Shown here piece by piece: positions 42,567 through 47,286 of a stretch of 64,000 bases of DNA. The stretch comes from Halofilum ochraceum. Its GTDB lineage: Bacteria; Pseudomonadota; Gammaproteobacteria; XJ16; Halofilaceae. Location of the stretch: contig NZ_LVEG02000004.1 in NCBI RefSeq assembly GCF_001614315.2, positions 124,001-188,000 of the forward strand. Reading direction: 5' to 3'. Position numbers and translations under genes: made by a program. Positions within the stretch are counted from its first letter, which is position 1. Every line of letters begins with the position of its first letter. Under the pieces are notes generated by a model. The model was not told where the DNA came from, made no database searches, and saw only the letters and a list, made by a program, of their open reading frames with translations.

Positions 42567-43304
42567 ATGACGAACACATTCGACGACTACAGCCTGTTGC
42601 TGATCGTGGTGTCGTATCTCGTATCAGCTCTGGGCGCTTTCACGGGGCTTATGATTTCGCGGCATATCCGGACCGAAGAGGGCGAGATCCGCTTCGGCTG
42701 GCTCACGCTCGCGGCGCTGGTGATGGGGGGATGCGCGATCTGGGCCATGCATTTCATCGGCATGCTCGCGTGGCGCCCCGAAGTAGCCTTGACCTATGAC
42801 ACCAACCTGACCGCGCTGTCACTGGTGTTGTCGATCGGTTTCACGATGGCGGGGTTGTATGTCGTGCACCGGTTCCACGGGACAACAGCATGGCTGGGGG
42901 CCGGTCTGGTCATGGGACTCGGCGTCGCCGCGATGCACTACACCGGCATGGCCGCCGTGCGGATCGCGGCCGAGATGAGCCACGATCAGGCGCTCGTGGC
43001 CGTGTCGATCGGCATCGCCGTCGCCGCCTCGATCGCCGCGCTGCGCATCGCGGTGCACTGGCGCGGCGCGCTGCGCCATGCGAGTTCACTGGTGATGGCC
43101 TTCGCCGTCTGCGGCATGCACTACACCGGCATGGCGGCGATGCGGCTCCAGCCCTCCGGTAGTGCACCGGATTATTTCAGCGGTGCGTTGACCCGACCGG
43201 TCATGAGTATCGCCGTGACGCTGGCGGTGGTCTGCGTGACGATGGTCGCGATCATCAGTCTGTTCGGTCGCCAGCTCGAGGAAGTGCCCGGGTCCGGCGT
43301 CTGA
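42567..43304 (+). CDS. stand-alone MHYT-domain membrane sensor
   Basis: A 245-residue seven-helix membrane protein. Three copies of the MHYT motif are seen as MHFIGM (about residue 60), MHYTGM (about 123) and MHYTGM (about 189). In this family the histidines and methionines are thought to bind copper or another metal and sense oxygen, CO or NO. Most MHYT proteins continue into GGDEF, EAL or kinase domains; this one ends after the last helix with a 12-residue tail, so it must signal through a partner or act as a metal-binding membrane protein. ATG 42567 follows GGGG. The upstream operator-like palindrome may control it. Confidence 0.88.
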   Translation: MTNTFDDYSLLLIVVSYLVSALGAFTGLMISRHIRTEEGEIRFGWLTLAALVMGGCAIWAMHFIGMLAWRPEVALTYDTNLTALSLVLSIGFTMAGLYVVHRFHGTTAWLGAGLVMGLGVAAMHYTGMAAVRIAAEMSHDQALVAVSIGIAVAASIAALRIAVHWRGALRHASSLVMAFAVCGMHYTGMAAMRLQPSGSAPDYFSGALTRPVMSIAVTLAVVCVTMVAIISLFGRQLEEVPGSGV

Positions 43305-43451: not shown

Positions 43452-43477
43452 CGCCCGGCACTGCCGGGCGTTTTTTT
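43452..43477 (+). terminator. intrinsic terminator after the MHYT gene or an upstream small RNA
   Basis: CGCCCGGC-ACT-GCCGGGCG followed by seven T. It lies 148 bp after the MHYT stop and just behind another hairpin (GGCGGTT-GCA-AACCGCC, 43431-43447). The distance leaves room for a short independent transcript. Confidence 0.85.
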
Positions 43478-43579
43478 AGCGGACAGGGCGCGGGCGGCAG
43501 TCCAATGCCCCCTGGCCGGAAGTCCGGTATACTGACCATCGGCTCGAATCGATCCACACCCCGAGGGGAGGGGGGATCG

Positions 43580-43864
43580 ATGAACAAGTCCGACATCGTC
43601 ACGCACATCGCCGGCCAGCTGGGCTACAGCAAGGCCGAGACCCATCGACTGCTCGATGCGTGGATCGAAGCGATCTCGCATCACCTGGCGGTCGGCGACC
43701 GGGTCGTATTCCGTGGACTCGGCTCATTCGGGACGCGCGAAGTCCCGGGGCATCGCGGTCACCGGCCCGCGGACGGCCAGAGTATCGAGATCCCCCCTGC
43801 CCGCCAGGTCACTTTCCGCCCCGCCGAGGGGCTACGTGCAGCCATCCGTGAGCGGTCTGAATGA
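43580..43864 (+). CDS. HU/IHF-family DNA-binding protein
   Basis: A 94-residue nucleoid-associated protein of the HU/IHF fold. MNKSDIVTHIAGQLGYSKAE forms the helical base. VVFRGLGSFGTREVPGHRG begins the beta-arm, PADGQSIEIPPARQVTFRPA completes it, and the C-terminal helix follows. The arm tip has RPADG where HU usually has NPxTG, so DNA bending may differ. An exceptionally strong ribosome-binding site, GGGGAGGGGGG, precedes ATG 43580. It overlaps the following HU-LysM gene by 4 nt (ATGA). It is probably not the main HU, given its divergence and coupling. Confidence 0.9.
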   Translation: MNKSDIVTHIAGQLGYSKAETHRLLDAWIEAISHHLAVGDRVVFRGLGSFGTREVPGHRGHRPADGQSIEIPPARQVTFRPAEGLRAAIRERSE

Positions 43865-45813
43865 GCGGCCGGGTCTTTGACGGCCGCATCGCCGAGGGGA
43901 TCGCGCCTGACGACCGCGCGCGACAGGAGCGTCTGAAGGCCACGGCACGCGCGCTCGTGACGGCGGTCCGCGATGGTCTCGTGCGCGATGGTGCCGTGCG
44001 CCTGCATGGTTTCGGGACCTTCCGTCTGCGCCCGGTCGCCGCGCGCCGCGGCCGCCATCCGCGCACCGGCGAGCCGATCGACATCCCGGCCGGCTGGCGC
44101 GTCATGTTTCGGCCGGCCAAGGCGCTGCGCGAACGGATCGAACCGGATCGGGCGCCGGCGCTCCCCATCGGAGAGCCCCACGCCTCGCGGGAAGCGATGC
44201 TTGCCGCCAGTGCCGCCGACGCGGCACGGAACATCCGGAGCGGAGCGGGCAGGATCCCGGCGCAAGGCATTGCAGCGCCGCCACCGATGGCGCCTGATCG
44301 GGTCGCCGCGGCGGCAATGCCGGAACGGAAGTTCACCGCCCAGGGCCCGGTCCCCCAGGTGCCGGCCGATCTGGAATGGGATTCTCGCGTCACCCGGTCC
44401 CCGGCGGCGCTCATGCGCGCCCCGACAGCGAATGAGCCGCCGGCGGCGGAAGAGGTTCGCACTACGGAGTCTGCCCCGACGGAGCCGCCGTCCGCCCCGG
44501 TAACCGCGCGCCGTCGGATCGGTTACCGCTACGCGCTTGTGCTTCTGCTGGTGTTACTGGTCGCTGGTCTCGCCTGGCTGTTGCGACCTTTTGATTCGCC
44601 CGTTCCCCGCGTGGCCGAAGAGCCCGAGCCAGTCGCTTCCGGGCAGATGGCCGGTAACACGGGAAGCGCGACGCCGGATCCGGCCGCCATGTCCGGCGGC
44701 GCCGGTTCCCGGGAACCGGAGTCCGCAGCGACCGCCACGGAGCAGACCGATGGCCCGGGCGCGGTCGAAGGGGACGCCGGGGCGGCGAAGGAGATGGCGG
44801 AGGCGGACCCGACGGCAAGCGCTGACGGGGATGCGCCGGCAGCGTCCGGCGATACGGGCGCGACCGATGGGGACGGAGCGACTGTCGGCGGAACCGTGGC
44901 CGAGGCGAAGCCGGCCGTTGATCCGGGCGGCAGCGACGCCGCCACCGCCGCGACACCGGAGATGGCGAAAGCGACCTCGACGGCAACCACCGATCGGGAT
45001 GACCCGGAATCCCCCGGTGATGCCGGTGCGGTCGATGAAGGCGGCGCCGTAGCCCGGGAAACCGTGGCGGCGGGTACGGGGCCGACCAGCGGCCAGGCGG
45101 GTGCTGACGCCGAAGTCAGGGCTACCTCGTCCGAGGCAGCTGAAGAGACCGCGGCGCCCCCCTCTGACCCCGCGAAAGCCGCTGGCGGGATGGCCAGGGA
45201 TGGGGATCCGGGCGGCGAAGCCGCTCGGGATGCCGGTGCCACGCCCGACGCGGGTGATAGCCCCGCGGCCGGCACCGAAGCCGCGCAAACCGCGACGGTG
45301 GCCGGGGATGGGGCAACCGGCCCAGCAGCGGAAGCGCCCAGCCAGGGTCAGGCCGTGTCCGGAACGCGTGCCGCTGACGAAGGCGCCGCCGAAAGCGGGC
45401 CGTATTTCCAGGGGCGTGATTACACCGTGCGCAGCGGTGATACTTTGTGGGACCTGGCCGACCGTCAGTACGTGAATCCGTACTACTGGCCGCACATCTG
45501 GAACCACAACACCGATATCGAAAACCCCGACCGGCTCGAGGTACGCCAGGGGCTCTGGCTGCCGACGCTCGAAGGCGAACCACGATCGCTGACCGAGGCC
45601 GATCGCCGCAGCATCGCCGAGGGCTACCTGCTCCTGTACCGGTTCTTCCGCGAGCAGGGGGACGCGAACCCGCAGTACGCCCTCGTCGGCGTGCGTTATT
45701 TCGATGCATCGGTCCTGCCCGAGCGGCTGCGCGGTACTGCCGCGGGGTATCCGGGTGATACCCTGGCGGCAGTCTTTCAGGCTCGGCTCGAAGCCGAATT
45801 CCCGCTCGACTGA
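43861..45813 (+). CDS. membrane-spanning HU-domain/LysM fusion protein
   Basis: A 650-residue protein. Residues about 15-100 are a second HU/IHF-type domain: RLHGFGTFRLRPVAARRGRH, then PRTGEPIDIPAGWRVMFRPA, with the HU arm motif (HPRTGEP) better kept than in the preceding gene. Residues 100-220 are a proline/alanine linker. One helix spans about 225-242 and is preceded by RRRIGYRY, implying N-in, C-out topology. Residues 243-515 are A/G/D/E/T-rich, with an internal duplication of about 56 residues (311-366 and 367-422). A LysM domain follows at 521-569 (YTVRSGDTLWDLADRQYVNP), then an 80-residue tail. DNA binding inside and peptidoglycan binding outside would tether nucleoid to wall. The architecture is seen; the function is inferred. 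Confidence 0.88.
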   Translation: MSGRVFDGRIAEGIAPDDRARQERLKATARALVTAVRDGLVRDGAVRLHGFGTFRLRPVAARRGRHPRTGEPIDIPAGWRVMFRPAKALRERIEPDRAPALPIGEPHASREAMLAASAADAARNIRSGAGRIPAQGIAAPPPMAPDRVAAAAMPERKFTAQGPVPQVPADLEWDSRVTRSPAALMRAPTANEPPAAEEVRTTESAPTEPPSAPVTARRRIGYRYALVLLLVLLVAGLAWLLRPFDSPVPRVAEEPEPVASGQMAGNTGSATPDPAAMSGGAGSREPESAATATEQTDGPGAVEGDAGAAKEMAEADPTASADGDAPAASGDTGATDGDGATVGGTVAEAKPAVDPGGSDAATAATPEMAKATSTATTDRDDPESPGDAGAVDEGGAVARETVAAGTGPTSGQAGADAEVRATSSEAAEETAAPPSDPAKAAGGMARDGDPGGEAARDAGATPDAGDSPAAGTEAAQTATVAGDGATGPAAEAPSQGQAVSGTRAADEGAAESGPYFQGRDYTVRSGDTLWDLADRQYVNPYYWPHIWNHNTDIENPDRLEVRQGLWLPTLEGEPRSLTEADRRSIAEGYLLLYRFFREQGDANPQYALVGVRYFDASVLPERLRGTAAGYPGDTLAAVFQARLEAEFPLD

Positions 45814-45915
45814 ATACCGCCGGGCAGTCAGGCCGGCGGTGCAATCCGTCGCGGCCGGCTATGCGAACCCGCTCGCATGGAACGACGACCTATAACTGAA
45901 TCGGGAGGACCGTCG

Positions 45916-47286
45916 ATGCGCCGCCGTCACTGGATTATCGCCGCCGCTCTGCCCCTGGTGCTGAGCGCCTGCGACCGCTCCGGAACGAATGCCGAGCAGG
46001 CACCATCGCGCTCGCTCGAGGAAATCCGCGAAGTGGGTACGCTGAGCGTCATTACGCGCAATGCCCCGACGACGTGGTACATCGACCGCGACGGCGAGCC
46101 CACCGGGCCTGAGCACGATCTGGTGGAATCGTTCGCCGAGTCGATCGGCGTGACGGTGGAATACAAACGCCGGGACACGGTCGCCGCGGCGCTGGATGCG
46201 GTCGAGAACGGCGAGGGGGACCTGGCGGCCGCCGGGCTCACGCGGACGGAGGCCCGCCGCGACCGGTTCCGCTTCGGACCGGCCTATCAGCCGGTGACGC
46301 AGCAGGTGGTCTGCCGGCGCGATAACGTCCAGCCGGAGTCCGTGGAGGATCTGATCGGCCTCGACATCGAGGTCATCGCCGACAGCAGCTATGTAGAGCG
46401 GCTGGAGGCACTCAAGGCCGACGGACACCCGGATCTGGCATGGCGGACCAACGCCGAGGTGGACACCGAGCGATTGCTGCGCAAAGTCTGGGAACGCGAG
46501 ATCGACTGCACGGTCGCCGACTCCACGATCGTCGATATCAACCGGCGCTATTTCCCGGAACTGATCGCCCCGTTCAATCTGTCCAGCGAACAGCAGCTCG
46601 GCTGGGTCATGCCCCAGGCACGGGACGATCTCGCCAGTGCCGTCGAGGACTGGCTTGCCGAATTCCGCGACAGCGGGCAACTGGAGGATCTGCGCGAGCG
46701 CTACTATGGCTTCTTCGCGCTGTTCGACTACGTCGACACCTCGGTCTACATCCGGCGGATCCGGGAGCGTTTCCCGCAATACGATGCCTTCTTTCGGGAG
46801 GCGGCCGAGCAATACGATTTGCCCTACATGCTGCTCGCGGCCCAGGGCTATCAGGAATCCCACTGGAACGCGGCCGCACGGAGCCCGACCGGGGTGCGCG
46901 GGATCATGATGCTGACGCAGAACACGGCGCGCGCGATGGGCGTGGAGAATCGCCTTGACGCCCGCCAGAGCATCTTCGGTGGCGCCAAATACCTCGCCCG
47001 CATGAAGCAGCGGTTCGTGCCGGAGGTGACCGAACCCGACCGGACCTGGCTCGCGTTGGCCGCCTACAACGTCGGGCGCGCGCACATGCACGATGCACAG
47101 ACGCTGGCGCGCAAGCAGGGCCTCGACCCGCACCGTTGGGGGGATATCAAGAAGGTGCTCCCGCTGCTGGCCGATCCCGCGTACTACAATGATCTGAAAT
47201 ACGGGTATGCGCGTGGCACGGAGCCCGTGCGCTATGTGCGGCGGATCCGCGAGTATCAGCACATCCTGGCCAATCAGGTCGATTGA
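45916..47286 (+). CDS. mltF: membrane-bound lytic transglycosylase F
   Basis: Outer-membrane lipoprotein that cleaves peptidoglycan. It has 456 residues from ATG 45916 (GGGAGG upstream) with lipobox LSAC. Residues about 35-270 are an SBP_bac_3-like regulatory domain beginning GTLSVITRNAPTTWYIDRDG. Residues about 285-450 are the SLT catalytic domain, with the catalytic glutamate in QGYQESHWNAAARSPTG, then GIMMLTQNTARAMGV and LALAAYNVGRAHMHDA. All features of MltF are intact. It follows the HU-LysM gene after 102 bp. Confidence 0.95.
   Translation: MRRRHWIIAAALPLVLSACDRSGTNAEQAPSRSLEEIREVGTLSVITRNAPTTWYIDRDGEPTGPEHDLVESFAESIGVTVEYKRRDTVAAALDAVENGEGDLAAAGLTRTEARRDRFRFGPAYQPVTQQVVCRRDNVQPESVEDLIGLDIEVIADSSYVERLEALKADGHPDLAWRTNAEVDTERLLRKVWEREIDCTVADSTIVDINRRYFPELIAPFNLSSEQQLGWVMPQARDDLASAVEDWLAEFRDSGQLEDLRERYYGFFALFDYVDTSVYIRRIRERFPQYDAFFREAAEQYDLPYMLLAAQGYQESHWNAAARSPTGVRGIMMLTQNTARAMGVENRLDARQSIFGGAKYLARMKQRFVPEVTEPDRTWLALAAYNVGRAHMHDAQTLARKQGLDPHRWGDIKKVLPLLADPAYYNDLKYGYARGTEPVRYVRRIREYQHILANQVD

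Follow-up and report, generated by a model that had tools for sequence, protein, structure and literature searches.

An overlapping pair of HU-family genes as a candidate nucleoid-to-wall tether in Halofilum ochraceum and a few other gammaproteobacteria

What is the role of a protein that carries a DNA-binding domain of the HU type at one end and a wall-binding domain of the LysM type at the other? The question was raised by one gene in a stretch of 64 000 nucleotides of the Halofilum ochraceum genome (hereafter the window). In proteobacteria, the placement of the nucleoid relative to the envelope is usually attributed to indirect chains such as HubP-ParA-ParB. With both ends on one polypeptide, a direct link between nucleoid and wall becomes testable with two genes in a laboratory strain. 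These are F, which encodes the fusion protein, and S, which encodes a short HU protein. Their positions and those of the neighbouring features are given in Table 1. A terminator-like hairpin forms the boundary between the upstream MHYT gene and the S/F pair (the scan of the region found three such hairpins, against 1.1 expected by chance). A purine-rich run resembling a ribosome-binding site lies just 5' of S, and the stop codon of S overlaps the start codon of F in the tetranucleotide ATGA.

Table 1. Features of the S/F locus (window coordinates; residues are those of F)
Feature	Position	Strand	Description or evidence
MHYT membrane-sensor protein	42567-43304		Stand-alone, no attached output domain; upstream of the S/F pair
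Intrinsic terminator-like hairpin and T run	43452..43477	+	Terminator scan; 8 G-C pairs, 7 T
S, short stand-alone HU/IHF-family protein	43580..43864	+	94 aa; PF00216 E 1.4e-21
F, HU-TM-LysM fusion	43861..45813	+	650 aa, ATG start; one uninterrupted 650-codon frame
HU/IHF domain of F	43900..44139	+	Residues 14-93, arm tip HPRTGEP; PF00216 E 1.3e-18; fold prediction
Cytoplasmic linker of F	44140..44535	+	Residues 94-225; disordered or of low confidence in the model; basic next to the helix
Transmembrane helix of F	44536..44592	+	Single, residues 226-244; hydropathy 2.41; model helix 220-240
Low-complexity spacer of F	44593..45405	+	To residue 515; A/G/T/D/P/E-rich, fast evolving
LysM domain of F	45421..45564	+	Residues 521-568; PF01476 E 4e-6
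Helical tail of F after LysM	45589..45810	+	About residues 577-650; conserved in all members
mltF-like membrane-bound lytic transglycosylase	45877..47286	+	NF008112 543 bits; 63 bp 3' of F

An earlier note on this DNA had read F as one frame with an HU domain, a single helix and a LysM domain. All three parts were recovered from the ATG frame by Pfam searches and hydropathy, together with the arm motif, the basic patch before the helix and the low-complexity spacer (residues 244-515) that the note had listed. Two elements were added, the overlapping short HU gene (43580-43864) and a conserved helical tail after the LysM domain (about residues 577-620), with the motif AEGY..Y.(F/Y)(F/Y)...YALxGxRxFD. 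In Pfam, the N-terminus of F matched Bac_DNA_binding (PF00216) with 67.4 bits (E 1.3e-18) and S matched the same family with 77 bits (E 1.4e-21), both above the cut-off of 22.4. A search of PDB sequences with the N-terminus of F returned IHF/HU at 1e-17. AlphaFold2 was run with eight sequences as input. The monomer models, of moderate quality, contain an HU fold (core pLDDT about 75-86), a TM helix and disordered linkers, and Foldseek matched the HU domain of F to HU/IHF structures at 1e-5. Profile scores above the curated cut-off and the predicted HU fold thus place the domain in the HU/IHF superfamily.

The LysM domain of F scored 27.1 bits (PF01476, E 4e-6, cut-off 20.9), and several F homologues score below the Pfam cut-off. 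The models of the C-terminal part contain a LysM beta-alpha-alpha-beta unit followed by a helical hairpin (model helices 74-93 and 100-113), with a mean pLDDT of 63.6 for LysM and tail. Foldseek matched this piece to LysM folds with weak E-values. Among these matches was Kbp, a potassium-binding LysM protein of E. coli, and a LysM domain is not always a wall binder. The best match of the LysM domain among PDB sequences was TsaP, a secretin-associated pilus protein (E 2e-9), and a role of the pair in DNA uptake or type IV pili was considered on this account. Such a role is very improbable: the match is limited to the LysM domain, the charge distribution around the helix puts the HU domain in the cytoplasm, and pilus or competence genes were not noticed beside any of the loci.

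By hydropathy and charge, F has one hydrophobic segment (residues 226-244); the 15 residues that precede it carry a net charge of about +4 and the 15 that follow one of -3. Its homologues have one dominant TM each, and one of them has a weaker second hydrophobic stretch. The positive-inside bias was found in most members; in two, the 20 residues that precede the helix carry no net positive charge, although the side after it is more negative. The HU domain is therefore predicted to be cytoplasmic and the LysM domain periplasmic, a topology that had been proposed from the window alone.

The same HU-linker-TM-spacer-LysM-helical-tail architecture was found in ten other genomes, giving 11 loci in four families. 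The carriers outside the window family belong to three further families of Gammaproteobacteria (genomes G016 and G103, and eight genomes of one more family, seven of them recorded as MAGs). This recurrence rules out an assembly error or a frameshift fusion, which the earlier note had named among the ways in which its reading could fail. A phage or plasmid origin was also rejected, as the tblastn matches in phages were only partial (those listed covered HU domains) and those in plasmid records were short and lay in LysM. In all 11 loci the S gene lies immediately upstream of F, and its stop codon overlaps or abuts the F start. The S proteins are about 82-101 aa long; three longer frames are upstream-extended choices of the start codon. 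In F, the cytoplasmic part varies from 155 to 355 residues and the spacer between TM and LysM from 73 to 276 residues. In genome G301, a 195-aa TM-LysM-tail protein (L023:3737-4324) lacks an HU domain, and no neighbouring HU gene was seen. The periplasmic module thus exists alone in this genome, and the protein was set aside as a cousin. The LysM match in G040 and others scoring about 50-60 bits have no HU domain and resemble ordinary LysM proteins.

What surrounds the pair differs by family: mltF in the window genus, elsewhere TRAP transporter genes or a gene for a ParA-like ATPase. The MltF homologue of the window (45877-47286) has a lipobox-like LVLSAC near its N-terminus and may for this reason be a lipoprotein. 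At the loci inspected, mltF adjoins the pair in the window genus alone, and it was rejected as a conserved partner. Three genomes, all of one genus, have a gene for a ParA-like ATPase that is convergent with F and within about 15 bp of it (L060:6378-7046, L061:6376-7035, L062:6375-7034).

A maximum-likelihood tree was built from 29 HU domains, those of F and S among them. The F domains form a clade (support 100/99), as do the S domains (91/84), and neither clade falls within HU, IHF-alpha or IHF-beta, so that both genes appear to be old and to have travelled together. Three further HU/IHF genes are carried elsewhere in the genome (L001-L003). E. coli HU/IHF sequences served as reference rows in the tree and in the arm alignment, and the genome's own L001-L003 fall in the same clades. 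In the alignment, the arm tip with its proline (N/H-P-x-T/S-G type) is kept in 11 of 11 F proteins. The NPxTG tip is lost in every S protein (11/11), and in four of them (L039, L050, L051 and L052) the entire beta-arm has been deleted, leaving the dimer core.

Substitutions were compared in the closer pairs as pN against pS only, as dS was saturated in many pairs. pN was 0.05-0.19 in the HU and LysM + tail parts versus 0.33-0.48 in the linkers, and pS was 0.63-0.83 everywhere. The low pN at the two ends shows purifying selection on the HU and LysM + tail parts, and the middle, with its high pN, behaves like a spacer. These data bear on the view that the pair is a membrane-tethered, IHF-like regulator of transcription or chromatin, in which the LysM domain would report the state of the peptidoglycan and alter DNA binding or the proteolytic release of the HU end. 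The same anatomy of F fits such a regulator, and so does the lytic transglycosylase gene that adjoins the pair in the window genus. However, mltF was not a neighbour at the other loci inspected. Being long, fast evolving and by prediction disordered, the spacer and linker are poorly suited to conformational signalling; a flexible strap is more in keeping with a tether. A regulator of this kind is considered unlikely.

Taken with the constant gene order, these results suggest that the S/F pair is probably a dedicated nucleoid-to-wall tether, in which an IHF-like heterodimer would grip DNA and F would cross the membrane and hold the peptidoglycan. S and F would be translationally coupled, and their products would form an IHF-like heterodimer in the cytoplasm. 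The heterodimer is suggested by the overlap of the genes, their joint descent and the complementary retention and loss of the arm. F would supply the intact DNA-intercalating arm and S mainly the dimer fold. F would then cross the inner membrane once and reach out by its flexible spacer (73-276 residues), and its LysM domain and helical hairpin would hold the peptidoglycan. Such a link may position or anchor chromosomal DNA, at a single site or across the nucleoid; candidate purposes are segregation, placement of the nucleoid, clearance of DNA from the septum and osmotic stress, and the earlier note had suggested segregation, positioning or division. Against the tether weigh the LysM scores below the cut-off in several homologues, the existence of LysM domains that do not bind the wall, the rarity of the pair and its apparent loss in a congener. 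The tie between nucleoid and wall proposed in the earlier note thus stands as the natural reading of architecture and topology; its view of a single protein does not, as it overlooked the short HU partner present at all 11 loci. The stricter form of the proposal is a direct mechanical coupling of chromosome and wall by a split IHF-like heterodimer, made of an arm-bearing, wall-anchored subunit and an arm-less adaptor, whose job would be to strap DNA to the peptidoglycan through the inner membrane. This form is put forward tentatively, its chances being a little below even.

Three draws of about 370-380 Gammaproteobacteria genomes each, which overlapped, gave full members in only four families; the family richest in them has the pair in 8 of its 54 genomes. 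The carriers are a few poorly studied gammaproteobacteria, and the pair is rare and patchy. In the congener G001 (L015:1500-1760), homology to the window ends at 43556 and restarts at 45604. An apparent deletion of roughly 2 kb has taken the whole of S there and, from F, the first 581 codons; the upstream region and a 69-codon remnant of F beside mltF remain. The gap is inside the contig and not at its end, so that the pair appears to have been deleted in this sister species, an assembly fault being still possible. In the other congener, G002, no S/F member was found; its mltF is at a contig edge, which places the S/F site outside the view. Being rare, patchy and apparently deleted in a congener, the pair is accessory and cannot be essential for segregation.

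No description of an HU-LysM fusion system was found in the open-licence literature searched. The nearest idea is that of the Bacteroidetes HU-TM-SPOR proteins (Pfam HU-CCDC81_bac families), which combine an HU-type domain, a membrane helix and a peptidoglycan-binding domain. The plan of HU, membrane helix and wall domain is alike, but S/F has a LysM domain on the wall side, and its second HU is encoded by an overlapping gene of its own. With PF18175, F gave no match at E<=1, and the S proteins of the window and of G016 reached 13 and 21.5 bits against a cut-off of 35 bits; at E<=0.001 no match was found in the genome. A SPOR domain was not matched in Pfam at E<=1. Membership in the HU-CCDC81/SPOR group was rejected on the PF18175 and SPOR results.

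HubP is placed at the pole by means of a periplasmic LysM domain and, through ParA1, acts on the origin of chromosome 1 (PMC8789113). FimV/HubP and F have in common a periplasmic LysM, one TM and a long cytoplasmic part, and F might by analogy be a landmark adaptor. Its LysM domain would then direct it to the septum or the poles, while its HU end would recruit a DNA locus or work with a Par-type ATPase. The convergent ParA-like gene fits this reading, but it is restricted to one genus. The order of domains in F is opposite (N-terminal HU, C-terminal LysM), no FimV model matched at E<=1, and an acidic-repeat/TPR domain was not found in F. FimV/HubP membership was rejected on the missing model match and the reversed order, and the adaptor reading is regarded as doubtful. 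It is a special case of the nucleoid-to-wall tether and not its opposite. Direct binding of DNA may be possible in F, which would set it apart from FimV/HubP.

Other known proteins share features with the pair. RocS of Streptococcus pneumoniae has a part in segregation and connects the membrane with chromosomal DNA (PMC13042908, PMC11500499). Its membrane anchor is C-terminal, and the abstracts name no wall domain for it, the comparison being one of descriptions only. The likeness to TsaP, the closest PDB sequence to the LysM domain of F, is confined to that domain. IHF and HU share the HU fold with both proteins, and IHF, like the proposed S-F dimer, consists of two different subunits (IhfA/IhfB). 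The best NCBIfam match of both F and S is IHF-alpha, at 49.3 and 53.9 bits, respectively, against a cut-off of 111. With these scores and their separate clades, F and S were not assigned to the IHF-alpha, IHF-beta or HU equivalogs. They differ from IHF and HU in the membrane anchor of F and the degenerate arm of S, and this asymmetric pair, with the arm kept in F and lost in S, would be an evolutionarily unusual version of the HU/IHF dimer.
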